Source: an uncultured Alphaproteobacteria bacterium (GTDB lineage: Bacteria > Pseudomonadota > Alphaproteobacteria > CAAHEQ01 > UBA3637). Taken from it: a stretch of DNA of 45,059 bases. The notes under the pieces were generated by a model. It was not told the DNA's origin, did no database searches, and saw nothing but the letters and a program-made list of their open reading frames with translations. The position numbers were made by a program, and so were the translations under genes. The stretch spans positions 1 to 45,059 of the forward strand of contig CALXUD010000003.1 of the NCBI GenBank assembly GCA_944391585.1, read 5' to 3'. Each line of letters starts with the position of its first letter. Within the stretch, counting starts at the first letter, position 1. Of this stretch, positions 1,917-34,475 are shown one piece after another.

Positions 1917-3983
1917 TTACATTTTTGTTCGTTCTTGCATCTTTCTGGCAATTTCTTTTAAAATTGGAGAAATTATAATGATTTTCTCCCGTTTCTGAAT
2001 AATCGTCAGCGCTTCTTTTTGGCGAACAACATGAACTTGTGTTGTATCTGAATCCAATACCGGTTTGATTTTGTTTTCTTGAATTGGAATAATTTCAGTC
2101 TCTATCGAAGGAGTATTATTATTCGTCTGAGGGGAAATAATCTCCACATCTCTTTGAATGGGGGTGTTATTTTCAAAAGATTTTGTTTTAGAGCGCTTTA
2201 ATGGCGTTTTTTTGGAAACAGTTGCCCTTGAAGGTCTTGTTGATTTTTCCCCTGAGCTTGAAGTTAAATTGTCGGAAACTGTTTTTTCTTCTTTTTGTGT
2301 TTCCTTAACAGTTGTTATTTCTGGTTTTTTTATCACATTCAAAGCATGCTCTTCATGTAATTTAATTTGCACTTTTGGAGTATTTCTTTTTCGATTTTGA
2401 ATTTCGGCAAAAAGAGCTAATTTTTTCAAAGCTTCCAATTTGTCAGATTCATTTTGATAAGAAAAATCAATGGAATAACTTTTTTTAGAAATGCTTTTTG
2501 GATTTCCTTTATAAGAGAAGTTGATTTTTAAATCCTTATAAGCAGATAAATCAATTGTCTCTAATTGCATTACATTATCAATGGATAAATTTAATTCTTT
2601 CATATTCGGTGGGAAAATGAATGTTTTTACCGTTGGAGAATTGGATAAATTCAATGTCAATTTTTCAATTTTATGGCATTGTGAAAAATCAATTTCAGGG
2701 CCTTTGACGTTGTTTAAATCCACGTTTAATTCCGTGCTGCTGTCCGGAATAACAACTTTATCCAGATTTATTAAGTTAGCTTCACTTAAATCTAACGATT
2801 CCAAATTTTGAAATGGAATGGTCAAATTTGCATTTTCCTGAGGAAAAGAATGAACAATTTTAAGTGTTTTTAAGTCAAAACGATCTGGGTTTAATCGAAC
2901 ATAGTCATGAATTTGGTCAATTGCTTCTTTTGTTAAATCAACCAGTTTTAAGACATTGATTTTTGATAATTTTCTTTTTAATTCTTCCAAAAATGAACGA
3001 TCTTCATAATTTTCGGTATAAATTTTAAATTCAGTCGCTGTTGGAGTGTAAGGTACTAAATTGTGGTCATTATAATACTCGGCCGAAACAATTTTATTTT
3101 GTGAATCATAACGAACTTCATGACCATGTTTATGCCAAAAAGCTCCCTTTAAATGCCAAGATGTTTTTGTATAACCATTTTCATCATACGTATATGTTTC
3201 TTTTTTATAAGTAACATTGTTTTGATCGTAATATAGTCGTTCAACGATCCTGTTTTGATCATCAAATTTATCTATTACATTTTCTTTGGGTTGAATTTGA
3301 GGTTGAAAACGACGATTTGAAGAATTTAAACTCTCTTCAATTTTTTGTTGATTAAGTTCTTCGGTTGTTTTTTCGGTTATGGAATAATTTCTTGTTTGCT
3401 CATCAAAACTGATATTATATTTTATTGTGTCAAAAGATTGGATAATATTTCCAATTAAATCTTTTTTATTAATTTTAGAAATATTTCCATTTGCATCAAA
3501 AATAATTTCTTCCTTTGGTCGAATAATGCGATAACGAATGATTTCTCCATTCTTAGATTCTTGATATTGAACTTTTTCTTTTTTCTTAGAAAAGAAACCT
3601 GTTCGAGTAGTAATTGTTTCTTCCCAGATTTTATTAATAACATACTTTAATTGTTTAATCGGTTGATTGTTTTTGTACAAAGTTAAAGTATTTGGTATTC
3701 CTTTTGAATCGTAGTCAAAACGGCGTAGCGCATTATTTCCTTTGATGTATATTTTAGATTTTATTTTTGAAGGACTAAGCATATTATACTCAATATGATA
3801 ATGATGCTCTTCAATAGGATACTCTTGGACATGAATGGTTGTATCAAATGTTTCTTCATCAATGACAGTTTCTGTTCGGATTATGTTGCCGGAAGTGTCT
3901 TTAAAAATATATGTTTTCTTCCCATCAACCATAACCGGTTCTGGAATGAATGCTGTTGGATTATAAGGCGATTGATATTTCAT
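1917..3983 (-). CDS. Unknown 688-aa protein with YD-like and leucine-rich segments
   Basis: I do not recognise a named family. The start is the ATG at 3983, preceded by an AAAGGGGAT Shine-Dalgarno. An in-frame GTG 18 bases upstream lies before that site and is unlikely. There is no signal peptide or membrane segment, so a cytoplasmic location is likely. Residues ~80-115 and ~215-310 carry repeated FDYDSKG / YDENGY / VRYDSQNK stretches resembling YD or MORN-like sheet repeats. Residues ~380-495 are leucine-rich-like (LESLDLSEANLINL, MKELNLSIDN, LETIDLSAYK). Residues ~525-660 are low-complexity, Ser/Thr/Lys-rich and probably disordered. The last ~25 residues form a basic amphipathic tail (REKIIIISPILKEIARK). 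The gene is a single-gene transcription unit with its own promoter and terminator. A role in protein-protein contact is inferred only from the repeat types. Confidence 0.85.
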   Translation of the reverse strand: MKYQSPYNPTAFIPEPVMVDGKKTYIFKDTSGNIIRTETVIDEETFDTTIHVQEYPIEEHHYHIEYNMLSPSKIKSKIYIKGNNALRRFDYDSKGIPNTLTLYKNNQPIKQLKYVINKIWEETITTRTGFFSKKKEKVQYQESKNGEIIRYRIIRPKEEIIFDANGNISKINKKDLIGNIIQSFDTIKYNISFDEQTRNYSITEKTTEELNQQKIEESLNSSNRRFQPQIQPKENVIDKFDDQNRIVERLYYDQNNVTYKKETYTYDENGYTKTSWHLKGAFWHKHGHEVRYDSQNKIVSAEYYNDHNLVPYTPTATEFKIYTENYEDRSFLEELKRKLSKINVLKLVDLTKEAIDQIHDYVRLNPDRFDLKTLKIVHSFPQENANLTIPFQNLESLDLSEANLINLDKVVIPDSSTELNVDLNNVKGPEIDFSQCHKIEKLTLNLSNSPTVKTFIFPPNMKELNLSIDNVMQLETIDLSAYKDLKINFSYKGNPKSISKKSYSIDFSYQNESDKLEALKKLALFAEIQNRKRNTPKVQIKLHEEHALNVIKKPEITTVKETQKEEKTVSDNLTSSSGEKSTRPSRATVSKKTPLKRSKTKSFENNTPIQRDVEIISPQTNNNTPSIETEIIPIQENKIKPVLDSDTTQVHVVRQKEALTIIQKREKIIIISPILKEIARKMQERTKM

Positions 3984-4025
3984 TTTTTTATCCCCTTTCA
4001 CCTGTTTTTTTCTTTTGATATTTGA

Positions 4026-19617: not shown

Positions 19618-19642
19618 AAAAACGCCTCAACAGGCGTTTTTT
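19617..19642. terminator. Bidirectional terminator between the transporter operon and tRNA-Glu
   Basis: ACGCCT-CAAC-AGGCGT stem flanked by an A-run on the left and a T-run on the right. It works for the plus-strand operon and for tRNA-Glu on the minus strand. Confidence 0.88.
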
Positions 19643-19717
19643 GGCGACCCCAGCGAGATTCGAACTCGCGTTACCGCCGTGAAAGGGCGATGTCCTAGGC
19701 CTCTAGACGATGGGGTC
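19642..19717 (-). tRNA. tRNA-Glu (anticodon TTC), CCA encoded
   Basis: A 76-nt cloverleaf. The acceptor is GACCCCA/TGGGGTC with discriminator G and a genomic CCA. The anticodon arm is CCGCCCTTTCACGGCGG-like with TTC, and the T arm holds GTTCGAATC. Confidence 0.97.
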
Positions 19718-19859: not shown

Positions 19860-22217
19860 TTAAGCTCGTAATTCAGCACCGGTATTTTTCTTAACCAAAT
19901 TGATGATTTGTGTAGACAAAATTTCAATATCTTGGTCGGTTAATGTTTTATCCATTGGCTGAATTGTGACTTTGACAGCTAATTGTTTTTTACCTGCCGG
20001 TAATTTATCTCCGACATAAACGTCAAAAATAACGGCGTCTGTGATTTTTTCTTTATCTACCGAACGAATAGCAGATAAAACTTTGGCAGCCTCAACGTGT
20101 TTATCCATCACAAAAGCGAAATCACGTGTTAAAGGCATTAAATTAGATAATTTAAGTGGCTTTTGAGTTTTTGATTTCGTTTTTGCTTGTGGAATGTTAT
20201 CAATATAGATTTCAAATCCGACAACCGGTGTTTTAATCCCTAAATCTTTTAAAATTGCTGGATGGATTTCTCCAAAGTAGGCTAACACATTTTTTCCAAG
20301 ACATAAACTGCCCGAACGTCCTGGATGATACCAAGACGGTGCTTTGACAAATACTTGTGTTTGTGGAGCATCCATACTCTCTAATGCGGCTAAAGCATCA
20401 GCTTTAGCGTCAAAGACATCTACAACCCGTTCTGTTTGAGCCCAATGTTTTGTGGTAAAGTCCCCAGCGCGGATGCCCGCTGCCACTAGGCGTTGCTCCG
20501 TTGGTTTTGTGGAGTAGAATTCCGGTCCGACCTCAAATAATTGAACATCTTGGATGCCGCGATCTTGATTGTGTTTAACAGCGATCAATAAATTAGGAAT
20601 CAACGAAGGACGCATTTCATCTAAATCCGAAGCAATCGGGTTAGCAATTTTTATGCCTTTGCTGTCAAATTTGGCGGCTAATTTTGAATCCATGAAAGAC
20701 CATGTCATGACCTGATTTAATCCACGACTGGCTAATGCTCGTCGTACGGCAACTTCTCGCTTTTGGCGTGGCAATAGAATAGATGTTGGCAATTTATTTG
20801 CCCGTAAGGTTAAAGTTGGTAGTTCTTCCAATCCGTTAATGCGCACAATTTCTTCCACAATATCTGCAGAGCAAGAAACATCATTAGATCGCCAAGACGG
20901 AACTGATAATGTATTCCCATTTACTTTAAAGCCTAACTTTTCCAAAATAGAAACCATTTTTTCTTGTGGAATATCCATACCTGTTAAGCGTTTAACCTGA
21001 TTCCAATCAAATTCTATTTCCCTTTTCCAGTTAGGTTCTTGACCGGCAATAACCAATTCAGAAGCTTCTCCACCGCAAATATCTAAAATTAAGCGGGTCG
21101 CAATTTCGTTCCCCATGATGCAACTGGCTGGATCAATGCCACGTTCGAAACGTTGACGGGAATCAGATTCAGCATTCAAAATACGACCTGTTTTGGCAAT
21201 AGAAATAGGTTCAAAATAAGCCGACTCTAAAAAGACATTCACTGTATCTTTAGAACAACAAGTCGGGACACCACCCATAACACCGGCAATACTTTGAGCT
21301 CCAGCTTCATCAGCAATTACGGTCATACCTTCAGATAAGGTATAGGATTTATCATCCAATGCATCTAATTTTTCACCATTTTTTGCCGAACGAACGGTAA
21401 TATTTCCTGTTAATTTATCGGCATCAAAGACGTGTAATGGTCGGCATTCGCCGATATTGAGATAATTCGTAATATCTACTAATGCTGAAATAGGACGTAG
21501 ACCGGCGGCAATCAAAGATTCTTTCATCCAATCCGGACTTTCTACATTTTTCACTCCCTTTATATAACGTCCAACGAATTGTGGGCAATTCTGATCTGTA
21601 ATTTGAACTGAAATAGGAGATTTAAAAGAACCTGTAATTGGTTCCACATCATTAGATATATAAGATCCAATGCCTGTTGCTGACAAATCACGAGCAATTC
21701 CTTTAACACCAAAACAATCTCCACGATTTGGTGTGACATTAACATCAAATACAACATCTGATTTCAATGCTTCCGCTACGGATGTCCCCGCGGGTAAATC
21801 TGTTTTTAAATCAATAATTCCCGTATGATCTTCACCAATGCACAATTCGTCTTCAGCGCACATCATACCTTGGCTTTCAATGCCGCGAATTTTACCTTTT
21901 TCTAATTTTTCATTATATTTTGGGATTAAAACCCCCGGTAATGCCAAAACGGACTTCATTCCAACATAACAATTGGGAGCCCCACAAACAATTTGTAGCA
22001 TTTCCTTTCCTGTCCAAACCTGCAAAAGGTTTAATTTATCTGCATTTGGATGTTTTTCAACATTTTTAATTTCACCGATGATGAAATCTTTTAATTGTTC
22101 TGTCGGATTGATGATTTCCTCCACTTCTAATCCGATAGAGGTTAATTTATCGGCAATTTCATTTGGAGTTGCATTTGTTTCCAAGTATTTTTTTAGCCAT
22201 GTTAAAGATAGTTTCAT
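19860..22217 (-). CDS. pheT: Phenylalanyl-tRNA synthetase beta subunit
   Basis: Beta subunit of the alpha2-beta2 enzyme charging tRNA-Phe (785 aa, normal length). Order: N-terminal helix MKLSLTWLKKYLE; tRNA-binding OB domain (~40-150: NVEKHPNADKLNLLQV, CGAPNC); B3/4 editing domain (~200-370); B5; the inactive catalytic-like core; and a C-terminal ferredoxin-fold anticodon-binding domain starting LSNLMPLTRDFAFV. GAGGA precedes the ATG. It begins 17 bases after pheS and shares its transcript, ending at the terminator near 19810. Confidence 0.97.
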   Translation of the reverse strand: MKLSLTWLKKYLETNATPNEIADKLTSIGLEVEEIINPTEQLKDFIIGEIKNVEKHPNADKLNLLQVWTGKEMLQIVCGAPNCYVGMKSVLALPGVLIPKYNEKLEKGKIRGIESQGMMCAEDELCIGEDHTGIIDLKTDLPAGTSVAEALKSDVVFDVNVTPNRGDCFGVKGIARDLSATGIGSYISNDVEPITGSFKSPISVQITDQNCPQFVGRYIKGVKNVESPDWMKESLIAAGLRPISALVDITNYLNIGECRPLHVFDADKLTGNITVRSAKNGEKLDALDDKSYTLSEGMTVIADEAGAQSIAGVMGGVPTCCSKDTVNVFLESAYFEPISIAKTGRILNAESDSRQRFERGIDPASCIMGNEIATRLILDICGGEASELVIAGQEPNWKREIEFDWNQVKRLTGMDIPQEKMVSILEKLGFKVNGNTLSVPSWRSNDVSCSADIVEEIVRINGLEELPTLTLRANKLPTSILLPRQKREVAVRRALASRGLNQVMTWSFMDSKLAAKFDSKGIKIANPIASDLDEMRPSLIPNLLIAVKHNQDRGIQDVQLFEVGPEFYSTKPTEQRLVAAGIRAGDFTTKHWAQTERVVDVFDAKADALAALESMDAPQTQVFVKAPSWYHPGRSGSLCLGKNVLAYFGEIHPAILKDLGIKTPVVGFEIYIDNIPQAKTKSKTQKPLKLSNLMPLTRDFAFVMDKHVEAAKVLSAIRSVDKEKITDAVIFDVYVGDKLPAGKKQLAVKVTIQPMDKTLTDQDIEILSTQIINLVKKNTGAELRA

Positions 22218-22234: not shown

Positions 22235-23308
22235 TTATTTTTTAGAACCGGCTGTTAAACTGAGTCCACTGGTAATTGTGGGAATATCGGTTGGTAAAAA
22301 GCCATAATGTTTAATCCAGCGCATATCAGCGTCAAACATATTACGCAAATCGGGAATGCCATATTTTAACATTGCAAACCGATCAATCCCGCAACCAAAA
22401 GCGAAACCCTGATATTCATTTGGATCAATACCGCAGTTTTTTAGCACATTTGGATGTACCATACCACACCCCAGTAATTCAATCCATTCTTTACCAATGG
22501 ATTTTGCTAAACTACCGCCGACATCTGCTTCATAGGAAGGCTCCGTAAATGGGAAGAAAGAAGGTCGAAAGCGTAGTTTGACATCATCCGTTTCAAAGAA
22601 AAGCTTTAAAAATTCCTCTAAAACACCTTTTAAATGAGCCAGATTTGTTGTCTTGTCAATCACTAAACCTTCAATTTGGTGGAACATAGGTGTGTGTGTA
22701 GCATCATAATCAACTCGATAAACTCGTCCCGGAGCCACAATTTTTATTGGCGGTTTTTTATTTTCCATTGTCCTGATTTGAACACCGGAAGTGTGAGTGC
22801 GCAAAATTTTGTCTGAATCTCCTTCCATGAAGAAAGTCGCTTGCATTTGACGAGCAGGGTGAGAAGGGGGGATATTTAAAGCCTCAAAATTATGCCAATC
22901 GTCTTCAATATCAGGACCTTCAGCTAAATCAAACCCCATTTGGGCAAAAATTGTGAGCATTTCTTCCATCACTTGAGAAACCGGATGAATTCGGCCGACG
23001 GAATTTGGACGAACGGGTAGTGTTACATCCACTTTTTGGGAAGCTAATTTAGCGTTCATTTCTGCTTCTTCTAACTTTTTCTTTTTGGCTTCCAGTGTAT
23101 TTGCAATTTCAGTTTTAAAAACATTCAGAACTTGTCCAGCTTGTTTTTTTTCTTCAACAGGAAGGGTTCCCAATTCTTTCATTAAAACGGTAATTGCACC
23201 ATTTTTACCGAGAGCGGCTACTCGGATTTCGTCCAAAGCAGTTAAATTGTTAGCTTGTTCAATTTTTTGCAAAAGATCTGGTTTTAAAGTATTTATTTTA
23301 TTTTGCAT
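22235..23308 (-). CDS. pheS: Phenylalanyl-tRNA synthetase alpha subunit
   Basis: Catalytic alpha subunit, 357 aa. The N-terminal ~90 residues form the coiled-coil tRNA-binding arm (RVAALGKNGAITVLMKELG). The class II core has motif 2 LRTHTSGVQIRTM with GRVYRVDYDATHTPMFHQIEG, the region RFRPSFFPFTEPS, and motif 3 YQGFAFGCGIDRFAMLKYG. GAGGA lies upstream of the ATG. Normally it follows rplT directly. Here 1.4 kb of opposite-strand accessory sequence separates them, so it must use its own promoter. An A/T-rich -10-like TATATA lies near 23340, but I cannot fix a -35. Confidence 0.97.
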   Translation of the reverse strand: MQNKINTLKPDLLQKIEQANNLTALDEIRVAALGKNGAITVLMKELGTLPVEEKKQAGQVLNVFKTEIANTLEAKKKKLEEAEMNAKLASQKVDVTLPVRPNSVGRIHPVSQVMEEMLTIFAQMGFDLAEGPDIEDDWHNFEALNIPPSHPARQMQATFFMEGDSDKILRTHTSGVQIRTMENKKPPIKIVAPGRVYRVDYDATHTPMFHQIEGLVIDKTTNLAHLKGVLEEFLKLFFETDDVKLRFRPSFFPFTEPSYEADVGGSLAKSIGKEWIELLGCGMVHPNVLKNCGIDPNEYQGFAFGCGIDRFAMLKYGIPDLRNMFDADMRWIKHYGFLPTDIPTITSGLSLTAGSKK

Positions 23309-23409
23309 GTTTACATTCCTCTTTTTTATCAGATTTCACCTATATAGCATATTTTTTTTTGAAAAAAAAGATGTTTTTAAAGCTTCTGCTCGCAATTAAA
23401 ATAAAAATG

Positions 23410-23438
23410 TTGACAAAATTAAAAAGAGAGTGTATATT
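23410..23438 (+). promoter_or_regulatory. Promoter of the coiled-coil accessory gene
   Basis: TTGACA (23410-23415), a 17-bp spacer and TATATT (23433-23438), 33 bases upstream of the ATG at 23471. This is a near-perfect sigma-70 site for an otherwise unplaced gene. Confidence 0.82.
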
Positions 23439-23470
23439 AAAGTTAATCATTTAAGAAAAGGAGATCTGAA

Positions 23471-24034
23471 ATGAAATTTGTGCAAGAAAATATATCCGAA
23501 CCAAAATCAGTAGAGCAAAGTGTTTTGGAACAACCAAAAGAACCAGAGCAATCTCAAGCGCCTGAAAATAAGCCGGAATCTAAATTGCCTGAACAAAAAA
23601 ATTCTAAAAAGATAGGCTGTTTAGGACTGGGATATCATGTATTGATTGGGTTGGCTGTTTTGGGGGTGATTTTTTCTGCCTATGATCAAGAAAAACGAAT
23701 TGATGAATTGAAAGCTCAAAATGCGACATTAAAAAACAATCAAAACTTATTAGATAAGAAAAATGCTGAATTAGAGCAAAAAATTTCTGAAAATTTAGAA
23801 CATTTAACTGAAATGTATACATGGGGAAAAACTGTTAATCAAAAAAATAAAGAATTAAATGAAAAAGTAAAGGTTTTAGAAAATACCAATTCTACTATGA
23901 TGAAAAAAATCCAAAAATTAGAACAACAGTTGGATGAAAACAATAAGAAGAAAATTCGTGTAAAAATCGGTGACCAAAATTATACAATTTCCGATATGAA
24001 ATTGAAAATTCAGGAACAACGAGTTAAAGAATAA
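23471..24034 (+). CDS. Unknown membrane-anchored coiled-coil protein (187 aa)
   Basis: Not recognised. Residues ~1-50 are Pro/Glu/Gln-rich and probably disordered (EQPKEPEQSQAPENKPESK). Residues ~52-70 are hydrophobic and likely one membrane helix (CLGLGYHVLIGLAVLGVIF). Residues ~72-165 form a heptad-like coiled coil (IDELKAQNATLKNN, ELNEKVKVLENTNSTMMKKIQKLEQQL). A short basic end closes it. The likely topology is a cytoplasmic disordered arm with a periplasmic coiled coil, or the reverse. AAAAGGAG precedes the ATG and a strong promoter lies just upstream. It is followed after 10 bases by a frameshifted gene. The pair sits between rplT and pheS, opposite in direction. Confidence 0.8.
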   Translation: MKFVQENISEPKSVEQSVLEQPKEPEQSQAPENKPESKLPEQKNSKKIGCLGLGYHVLIGLAVLGVIFSAYDQEKRIDELKAQNATLKNNQNLLDKKNAELEQKISENLEHLTEMYTWGKTVNQKNKELNEKVKVLENTNSTMMKKIQKLEQQLDENNKKKIRVKIGDQNYTISDMKLKIQEQRVKE

Positions 24035-24044
24035 AGAACTTAGA

Positions 24045-24610
24045 ATGGCAATTATAGATCGTATTGGGTATTATACCGTTTTTTGAAGATGGATATATTG
24101 TTAAGGGAAAAGAATGGTATCCATTGGTTACAAAAAGCGATTGTCAGTAAATATGATTCCTGAGCCGGTGCAACCGGACCCAACATATGTAGTAACGGAA
24201 CGTAATATCTGGGGCAGGTTATTGATGAATATCCGGCGTGTTATGATGCGGAAGCTATTCAAGAATATCGTTTAAAATGTTCAGTTGTAAGAGAGTTAAA
24301 CAAAAAAAGACAGGAAGCCCGTCAAAAAGCTTTGAAAGAATTTAAAAAATATCGTCAAAACCGCTTGAAAGAAGTTCAAAAAGCTTATCTTTTACAAGAA
24401 AAAAAGAAATGTATGGCTGAAAAAGCTTATCGCAATCGTGTTTCTAAACGTTATAAGGAATATAAAGCTTATATGGCAACGCAGTCTAAAACATTTAATG
24501 TATTCGGTATGAAAATAACTTATACCCCGAAAAAAGTTGCACCAAAAGCAAAGGTGATTCAAAAAAGAGTTATTAAAGCTTTTGGCCGATCTATTGAGAT
24601 TGAACGTTAA
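24045..24610 (+). pseudogene. Unknown Lys-rich helical protein broken by three frameshifts
   Basis: Reading from ATG 24045 gives MAIIDRIGYYTVF, then a stop. The reading continues one frame over after a six-T run (24079-24084) as EDGYIVKGKEWYPLVTKSDCQ. A second shift between about 24140 and 24152 gives MIPEPVQPDPTYVVTERN. A third near 24200-24220, beside GGGG, gives YLGQVIDEYPACYDAEAIQEYR and a long Lys/Arg-rich helical C-terminus up to 24610. The intact product would be about 188 aa. The open part from 24332 (TTG start, no ribosome site) looks like a gene alone, but its protein clearly continues upstream. This could be true decay or assembly/sequencing error at homopolymers. The family is not recognised. 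Confidence 0.75.
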
Positions 24611-24650
24611 ATTAAGAACACCTTTTAAAGACGTTTTTTATTACATATCA

Positions 24651-24685
24651 AAAATGCCCTTTTTAAAAAAGGGCATTTATTTTAT
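24651..24685. terminator. Convergent terminator between the broken gene and rplT
   Basis: AAATGCCC and GGGCATTT form a perfect 8-bp stem extended by an A/T-rich inner part, with T-rich sequence on both sides. It can serve both strands. Confidence 0.85.
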
Positions 24686-24701
24686 CGGCTTAAAAAAATA
24701 A

Positions 24702-25055
24702 TTATAAAGCGGATTTTGCTTTTTCAACCAAAGCTTGGAAAGCTTTTTTATCATTGACAGCTAATTCTGCTAAAACTTTACGATCTAAAGCAATTCCGGC
24801 CTTTAATAAGCCATTAATGAATTTGGAATAAACCAAACCATTTTCACGAACAGCCGCATTAATACGAACAATCCACAACTGGCGGATTTCGGATTTTTTC
24901 TTCCGACGATCGCGATAGGCATATTGTAAGCCTTTTTCCACTTTTTGTTTTGCAACGGTATACACTTTGGAATTACGTCCACGGTATCCTTTTGCCATTT
25001 TTAAAATTTTATTATGTTTTGCACGAACTGTCGTGCCGCGTTTTACTCTAGCCAT
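24702..25055 (-). CDS. rplT: 50S ribosomal protein L20
   Basis: A 117-aa L20, the normal length, with a basic N-terminal extension ([30 protein letters not shown]) and the conserved [17 protein letters not shown]20 is needed early in 50S assembly and in many bacteria represses its own operon by binding the leader. It starts 12 bases after rpmI, as in the usual rpmI-rplT pair. infC does not precede the pair here, and pheS does not follow it directly. Confidence 0.98.
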
Positions 25056-25440: not shown

Positions 25441-25641
25441 ATGACAAACGAAGAACGTATCACAGAATTAGAAATGGCTGTTGCTGAAATACAAAAAATG
25501 ATTGATGATTTAAATGCGGAATCAGTGCGTCAGGCTCAAGTGATGATGAGATTAGAGCAAGATTGCAAAAATTTGCGCTTATTGGTGGATGAGGGGGTTG
25601 TCAAACCATTATCGGAAGAAACTCCCCCACCCCATTATTAA
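25441..25641 (+). CDS. slyX: SlyX-family protein
   Basis: A 66-aa coiled-coil protein starting at ATG 25441 (MTNEERITELEMAVAEIQKMI) with AAAGGA upstream. The GTG at 25417 is open but less likely. It has the family's two features: a single amphipathic coiled coil with a LNAESVRQAQVMMRLEQ-like centre, and the C-terminal TPPPHY. The SlyX function is unknown. It converges on pepN, with 22 bases between the stops. Confidence 0.88.
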   Translation: MTNEERITELEMAVAEIQKMIDDLNAESVRQAQVMMRLEQDCKNLRLLVDEGVVKPLSEETPPPHY

Positions 25642-31513: not shown

Positions 31514-32323
31514 TCAACGTGAGAAAAATTTATTCCTTATTATTTCTTGAACAGGAATTTTCTTTTTTTTCTCTTCTTTTTTCTTTTTTAAAATTAGCTC
31601 TTCATTTATTTTTTTTGTTTGTTTTATTTTGTTTAATTTTATTTTAGCTAATTTTTTTAAATTTTTCTTTTTTAAAGTTTCATTTTTTAAATAGTTTTTA
31701 TATTCATCTTTTTTATCAGAGACAATTAAAAAATTATCTATAAAAGAAAGGACATCATTTTCCAAAATATTTGTTTTCTTTTTGAGAATAACTTGATGTT
31801 TCGTTAAATGAAAGATATCTTCTTCTTTAAATTTCCTCATAGGAGATAAAAGTTGTTTTTTTACTTCATAAATATTATAGATGTCAGTATGATGACTTAA
31901 TTTTATTGGTAAATCGGAATAAGACACTCTCACTTCTTTAAAATTAACATCTATATCTCTTTGTTCTAACACTTTATTTTTATTGATAGAAATCCAAGAA
32001 ATATCTTTTTGGTCTGTGATAGCAAATATATTTCTTTCTGTTTCAACAGTTGTTGGCATAAAATCTCGAGGATCTCCTTGATAAGTATCTCTTACACATC
32101 GGATAGAACCGTTTGCTAAATAATAAGTTTTATTTCCAATGGTTATTTTTTTTATTTTAATTGGCGATATTATTTCAGTTTTATCAACATGATCCAAGAT
32201 ATTTTTTAAATATGTTGGATTAACAATTTCTTTTAATTTTTGAGTTAATTTAGGATCATTAAGAGATGTTTCTTCTATAGTTGTTTTTTTAAATAAAGAA
32301 GTCAAAAAAGTTTTTAAAGACAT
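31514..32323 (-). CDS. Unknown 269-aa protein with Lys-rich helical tail
   Basis: Not recognised. The start is ATG 32323 (MSLKTFLTSLFKKT) with GGAGGG upstream. The open codons beyond it overlap the promoter's -35. Residues 1-60 are helical. Residues ~60-190 look like a beta-rich domain (IKKITIGNKTYYLANGSIRC, ISWISINKNKVLE, QVILKKKTNIL). Residues ~200-269 are extremely Lys-rich and helical, ending VQEIIRNKFFSR. There is no signal or membrane segment. It is a single-gene unit with a near-perfect promoter, converging on murD2 (12 bases between stops). Base composition is even more AT-rich than its neighbours, which hints at an accessory origin. Confidence 0.78.
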   Translation of the reverse strand: MSLKTFLTSLFKKTTIEETSLNDPKLTQKLKEIVNPTYLKNILDHVDKTEIISPIKIKKITIGNKTYYLANGSIRCVRDTYQGDPRDFMPTTVETERNIFAITDQKDISWISINKNKVLEQRDIDVNFKEVRVSYSDLPIKLSHHTDIYNIYEVKKQLLSPMRKFKEEDIFHLTKHQVILKKKTNILENDVLSFIDNFLIVSDKKDEYKNYLKNETLKKKNLKKLAKIKLNKIKQTKKINEELILKKKKEEKKKKIPVQEIIRNKFFSR

Positions 32324-32348
32324 TATTCCCTCCGTAAAATACAAAAAC

Positions 32349-32377
32349 ATTATATCATAAAAATAATGTTTTTTCAA
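32349..32377 (-). promoter_or_regulatory. Promoter of the 269-aa gene, with embedded inverted repeat
   Basis: Minus-strand TTGAAA (32372-32377), a 17-bp spacer and perfect TATAAT (32349-32354). The repeat AACATTAT ... ATAATGTT (9-bp spacer) covers the spacer and the -10 and could be an operator. Confidence 0.78.
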
Positions 32378-33547: not shown

Positions 33548-33757
33548 TTATTGTTTTAAAATACAAATCACATTGTGATATAAACAGGCAAAACCTTGAC
33601 CGATTTTTTCAAAAAAAGGAAGTTGAACGTTCTTTTCCAAGCACGAAAGCATATCTCCTGCACAAACATTAGTTGCAGTTGGTGTCGAAAAAAGATAAAT
33701 CAACACGCCAATTAAAGACAAAATAATAAGTCCCCAAAAGAGGGTTTTAAACATCAT
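33548..33757 (-). CDS. Small 69-aa membrane protein with four cysteines
   Basis: Not recognised. One N-terminal membrane helix (residues ~3-24, FKTLFWGLIILSLIGVLIYLF) is followed by a short, probably periplasmic domain with four Cys (NVCAGDMLSCLEKN and FACLYHNVICILKQ) that could form two disulfides. The start ATG lies inside the end of the uridylyltransferase gene (11-base overlap) with GGAAGG upstream. The gene is followed after 11 bases by glk. Tight packing in the operon supports a real gene. Confidence 0.75.
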   Translation of the reverse strand: MMFKTLFWGLIILSLIGVLIYLFSTPTATNVCAGDMLSCLEKNVQLPFFEKIGQGFACLYHNVICILKQ

Positions 33758-34475
33758 TTTTCCTTCCCTGATAAATCATTTCTGCCGCTTCTAACTCTTC
33801 TTGCGTATTTATTCCGTGTGCTTCTTCTACATCACAAATGACGATATCGCGCTTAAGACCATGTTCTTTCGCCAATTTAACCACATCTGTTAGATAGTAT
33901 TCTTGAGCGGCATTATTATTTTTAATTTCTTTTAACAAGGAAAGAGCATATTGCCCATTTAAGCACATAACACCGGAATTGCATAATTTAATGGCACGTT
34001 GTTCATCTGTTGCATCTTTATATTCCACAATCTCTTCCAGTCCCGCTTCACTCATAACCAAACGACCGTATCGGCGAGCATCTTGAGGAATAAAGCCTAA
34101 GACAACCACATCAAATCCTTCCTGATATTTTTGAATCATTTTGGTTAATGTTTCTGATTTCAATAAAGGGCTGTCGCCAAATAAAATTAAAACACATCCA
34201 TCAAAAGGTTTTAGATATTCTTCTGCCATTAAAACGGCATGACCTGTTCCCAAGCGTTCTTTTTGCTCAACGGTTTTATAAGGTGCAACTACTTTTTTTA
34301 AATTGTCCATGTTAGGACCAACAACAACAGTAATGTCTTGGATGCCCGCTTTTTCAACTGTGGAAAGTAGAATTCGAATCATCGGAATACCACAAATTTC
34401 ATGCAAAACTTTTGGTAGTGGAGAATTCATTCGTGTTCCCATACCGGCACCTAAAATAATTGCTTTTGTTTCCAT
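33747..34475 (-). CDS. Stand-alone GlmU-type UTP-sugar-1-P uridylyltransferase
   Basis: A 242-aa nucleotidyltransferase equal to only the N-terminal half of GlmU. The signature LGAGMGTRMNSPLPKVLH is at residues 8-25, followed by QKERLGTGHAVLMAEEYL, LFGDSPLLKSETL, GRLVMSEAGLEEIVEYKDA and NSGVMCLNG. The left-handed beta-helix acetyltransferase half (about 200 residues) is absent. The gene ends cleanly in the middle of an operon, with the next ATG overlapping its stop, so it is not a recent truncation. It likely makes UDP-GlcNAc from GlcNAc-1-P, with acetylation done by another protein. Other UDP-sugars are possible. Confidence 0.88.
   Translation of the reverse strand: METKAIILGAGMGTRMNSPLPKVLHEICGIPMIRILLSTVEKAGIQDITVVVGPNMDNLKKVVAPYKTVEQKERLGTGHAVLMAEEYLKPFDGCVLILFGDSPLLKSETLTKMIQKYQEGFDVVVLGFIPQDARRYGRLVMSEAGLEEIVEYKDATDEQRAIKLCNSGVMCLNGQYALSLLKEIKNNNAAQEYYLTDVVKLAKEHGLKRDIVICDVEEAHGINTQEELEAAEMIYQGRKNDV

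Follow-up and report, generated by a model that had tools for sequence, protein, structure and literature searches.

In an uncultured, gut-type alphaproteobacterium a lineage-specific stretch of DNA with two orphan genes has probably been gained where the rpmI-rplT genes border on pheS-pheT, and this two-gene unit appears to be decaying, because its second gene is broken. The stretch measures around 1.3 kb; the spacer is too diverged to give exact breakpoints. The DNA analysed (the window, 45,059 nucleotides) is one whole contig of a draft alphaproteobacterial genome of 1.08 Mb (74 contigs, 84% complete). The named relatives matched through PheS are uncultured Alphaproteobacteria as well, and several of them come from ruminant guts.

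The cluster is formed by rpmI (L35; 25068-25262), rplT (L20; 24702-25055), pheS (22235-23308) and pheT (19860-22217), all of them on the minus strand, so that the order and common strand given in the preliminary description are confirmed. RplT and PheS are recognised by NCBIfam profiles (TIGR01032 with 158.6 bits, where the cut-off is 65.65, and TIGR00468 with 347 bits, where it is 237.45, respectively), while rpmI and pheT are open reading frames matching the RpmI beside rplT and the PheT beside pheS in relatives. Gene order and strand are the same as in the rpmI-rplT-pheS-pheT cluster of Proteobacteria, where rplT and pheS are otherwise neighbours; here, however, a spacer of about 100 bp is replaced by 1,393 bp (23309-24701, from the pheS start at 23308 to the rplT stop at 24702) with two plus-strand coding regions. 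The separation of 1.65 kb claimed earlier is therefore too large. Read on the plus strand, the gap contains in order a promoter, a ribosome-binding site, a gene of 187 codons (gene 1), a second coding region (gene 2) and a two-sided terminator. Plus-strand coding DNA is thus present as described before, but instead of two genes only gene 1 is intact and the second one is broken.

Some other genes of the window were also inspected. A SlyX gene (25441-25641, plus strand; Pfam PF04102, 51.2 bits against 30) adjoins rpmI in divergent orientation; in the family genera g2, g5 and g7, too, SlyX lies close to rpmI. Two orphan reading frames lie on the minus strand: one at 31514-32377, Lys-rich, with a G+C content of 0.22, a GC3 of 0.15 and no Pfam match, and another at 1917-4001, which encodes 694 residues and whose Pfam matches are weak and below the cut-off. 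A GlmU-like protein of 242 residues is encoded at 33747-34475 (minus strand); its length is about that of the uridyltransferase half, and the acetyltransferase half is not adjacent.

The consensus promoter reported previously at 23410-23438 (plus strand) is present as a sigma-70-type TTGACA-17-TATATT sequence with 11 of 12 consensus matches. In the whole window, counting both strands, only seven sites reach 11 or more of the 12 matches, and an AAGGAG ribosome-binding site (23458-23463, plus strand, read from the sequence) stands directly downstream, 7 nt before the ATG at 23471; on account of this rarity and of the downstream context, 23410-23438 is likely to be the promoter of gene 1. At the other end, a hairpin terminator with a 12-bp stem and T-rich flanks on both strands (24652-24678) can be used from both sides, by rplT on the minus strand and by the inserted DNA on the plus strand, in agreement with the shared terminator proposed before. 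Rfam gave only weak small-RNA matches at this hairpin, all below the gathering scores. Close to pheS, the sequence TATGCTATATAGG (23338-23352, minus strand, also read from the sequence) resembles TATGTTATAGTATAAGG in the intact spacer of the family genome G013. It might be the -10 element of a separate pheS promoter, which possibly is still located near pheS in this genome.

Gene 1 (23471-24034, plus strand) encodes an orphan protein of 187 residues, and codon usage supports its frame nearly throughout. The protein has a disordered, acidic and proline-containing N-terminus, followed by lysines, a single hydrophobic helix (residues 49-71 approximately), a long coiled coil reaching to about residue 161 and a small C-terminal hairpin and helix. 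Its predicted structure (mean pLDDT 78) contains a helix from residue 51 to 161, with high confidence over the coiled coil, and no significant fold match to this model was found in the PDB. The membrane-anchored coiled coil of the preliminary description is therefore upheld as a predicted architecture, that is to say, the layout of a single-pass coiled-coil membrane protein with predicted membrane insertion. According to the positive-inside rule the coiled coil would be placed in the periplasm. Judging from this architecture, gene 1 probably encodes a single-pass inner-membrane protein with a cytoplasmic N-terminus and a periplasmic coiled coil, and it could act as a self-associating envelope scaffold or tether. 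The general layout, in which an N-terminal part and one membrane helix precede a long coiled coil, is shared with DivIC/FtsB-like proteins, Rz-like spanins and IcmG/DotF; gene 1 differs from all of them in that it stays below the curated cut-offs, has no homologue in the collections searched and is not accompanied by their typical neighbours. Searches against Pfam, PHROGs and NCBIfam gave only generic coiled-coil matches and no curated profile at its cut-off. DivIC (16.7 bits against 28.9) and IcmG/DotF (23.5 bits against 200) both fell short. No homologue of gene 1 was found in the genomes of the family or the class, in GTDB species genomes, or in viral contigs, phages and plasmids.

The second coding region (24045-24610, plus strand) was defined by frame translation, a codon-usage scan and alignments, and it is best described as the remnant of a gene for a helical, Lys-rich protein. 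Three-frame translation and the codon-usage scan reveal about three changes of frame in the interval 24080-24210. The frame stays open over 24206-24607 alone, and the reading frame noted earlier at 24332-24610 is the 3' part of this stretch, whereas the 5' part (24045-24205) is spread across other frames. Read through the frame changes, the gene would encode about 189 residues starting at 24045, 10 bp past the stop of gene 1, and it was probably once cotranscribed with gene 1. The Lys-rich helical protein described before corresponds to the C-terminal portion encoded by an interrupted gene and not to an intact one.

With the read-through protein as query, two homologues were detected at other loci of family genomes, one in G026 (E 5.6e-9) and one in G031 (E 4.6e-6), and these two places differ from each other. 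Both are intact, with open frames of 164-165 codons and proteins of 159 and 163 residues. In order to avoid the circularity of such a query, the pieces of gene 2 were tested apart. With a profile made only from the two homologues, the open fragment of gene 2 came first among all fragments of the window (E 0.0027). The 5' part is homologous too: when the first 66 residues of the homologues were aligned to the raw DNA 24035-24245 with tolerance for frameshifts, none of 300 dinucleotide shuffles reached the score obtained with either homologue (z = 4.5 and 6.2). Gene 2 therefore keeps similarity to its family along most of the protein and lacks a single uninterrupted reading frame. The search for homologues of the inserted proteins suggested earlier has thus been productive for gene 2 and fruitless for gene 1. 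The gene 2 family was found in this genome and in two g4 genomes only, at different places, and it was not detected outside the bacterial family in 289 genomes of the class. A further weak match in G026:C84 was discarded because it falls on an ATP synthase b-type subunit, and matches in G005 and G028 were discarded as weak.

It could be argued that the organism itself has an intact gene 2, the frame changes being errors of metagenome assembly, and that both genes are functional accessory genes. The genome is indeed a fragmented draft, and some of the frame changes are near short homopolymer runs. Nevertheless, about three indels would have to be concentrated in some 130 bp of a single gene, when around 30 further genes, which cover most of the 45 kb, are uninterrupted; besides, the open 3' part of gene 2 has also diverged from the homologues in length and sequence. 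Assembly error is consequently considered unlikely. In this single assembly, the concentration of frame changes in one gene with open neighbours argues for decay of gene 2 rather than for sequencing error.

Another explanation, somewhat less probable still, is that the DNA between rplT and pheS is left over from an inserted mobile element or prophage, which could for instance have contributed a spanin-like gene and a second phage gene. Three observations could be read in this way: PHROG 739 (Rz-like spanin) matches gene 1 with an E value of 8e-6, members of the gene 2 family occupy different places in different genomes, and the G+C content of gene 1 (0.296) is lower than that of PheS (0.386). 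However, the spanin match is restricted to the helix and the coiled coil, and gene 1 is also weakly matched by DivIC, IcmG/DotF, bZIP and other profiles. The surroundings of gene 1 contain neither phage genes nor a lysis cassette, in which an Rz-type spanin would be expected together with an Rz1 lipoprotein partner, so the assignment as a spanin was rejected. Neither inserted protein has a match in viral contigs; no match to gene 1 or to an intact homologue of gene 2 appears in 50,697 phage records, and gene 1 has no match in plasmids. At the junction there is no transposase, integrase or tRNA gene, and the nearest tRNA (19642-19717) lies beyond pheT. The region 23200-24760 contains only short imperfect AT-rich repeats, so that neither insertion-element ends, whose absence had been pointed out previously, nor terminal inverted repeats or direct repeats flanking the junctions were found. 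The proposal of a mobile insertion therefore receives no backing from these searches. The inserted stretch resembles small genomic plasticity regions in its lineage-specific AT-rich orphan genes, in a site content that varies by genome and in its partial decay; it differs from them in being very small and in having no integrase, tRNA or repeats.

The comparison of junctions supports a lineage-specific gain, as the preliminary description had anticipated. rplT and pheS were located in 43 genomes of the family (rplT in 43 of 43), with no second genome of the same genus among them. The gap measures about 90-115 bp in 11 of them, belonging to genera g4, g6, g9 and g10, and 58-411 bp in nearly all the distant alpha- and gammaproteobacteria. 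The junctions of G007 and G031 look short too but end at contig edges; the contig ends of G031, a genome labelled 'far' in the PheS tree, overlap by 26 bases inside the short spacer, which indicates that its junction is probably intact. Genes 1 and 2 were not found between rplT and pheS in any other genome searched; the outcome named beforehand as refuting, an insertion common to all relatives, did not arise. Since the gap is short both in the 11 family genomes and in distant relatives, a lineage-specific insertion is supported. In the PheS tree this genome falls in a supported clade that contains g4 genomes with intact junctions; the branches near it are not resolved, so that the insertion may be common to relatives that were not sampled. 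A search of the literature gave nothing directly on the rplT-pheS junction.

Altered junctions also occur in other members of the family, and in the PheS tree their states need several changes. A small reverse reading frame is present in G058 and G028, and G027 has two unrelated ones in a gap of 2.3 kb; in other family genomes rplT and pheS fall on separate contigs, lie at a distance of 16-22 kb, or have been rearranged. In G012 (loci L058 and L176) the end of pheT is within about 70 bp of rplT on the opposite strand, pheST being inverted relative to rplT. A similar-looking reverse reading frame of 64-88 residues is found about 140-470 bp upstream of pheS in genus g2 (L170, L171, L177-L181, L048 and L050); it is present whether or not rplT is near, so it appears to move together with pheST.

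Where genes lie in a gap of moderate size (G000, G058, G028 and G027), they run opposite to rplT and pheS in all four cases. A bolder reading, regarded as very unlikely, would make the boundary a recurrent landing site in this family for counter-facing orphan genes, and gene 1 with its former partner gene 2 a new two-gene envelope system of the family. tblastn found no similarity between the inserts of other genera and the present one. Although many family members also lack a short junction, it is hardly credible that the long gap is ancestral and the short junction derived, since the short junction is also that of distant alpha- and gammaproteobacteria and the gap DNA differs between genera.

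Gain of orphan DNA therefore stands as the preferred reading, and the spacers of the relatives offer an explanation for the place where it occurred. A hairpin terminator is located directly after rplT in the intact short spacers of L020, L031, L038 and L042 (in L038 the scanner calls the other strand, but the sequence itself shows a run of T on the rplT strand), and -10-like sequences precede pheS after the terminator. It appears that rpmI-rplT and pheST were separate transcription units already in the family. The idea that the insertion splits the cluster as a transcription unit is therefore not sustained: the short spacers of relatives already terminate rplT, and the junction appears to be a boundary between units where no operon has been cut.

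In the mechanism proposed, the short spacer would end rplT transcription by a hairpin terminator, as can be read in the sequence of the relatives, and pheS would start from a nearby promoter within the same spacer. With rplT already terminated and pheS started separately, such a boundary could tolerate additional DNA, whose entry by illegitimate recombination without a recognisable element would be the simplest reading. Genes 1 and 2 point away from pheS and toward rplT, and given this orientation, their own promoter and the shared terminator, they would not need to disturb their neighbours. As relatives already stop transcription at the junction, the extra DNA looks ordinary and is probably harmless.

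Taken as a whole, the case is judged to be an ordinary one, in which orphan DNA was gained at a site that tolerates it and one of the genes is decaying. For annotation, the gene call has to be corrected, and no intact gene should be recorded for the second inserted protein. From a biological point of view, it seems that a conserved textbook cluster can open without harm where adjacent blocks are apparently separate units, and that orphan DNA may enter there and decay.
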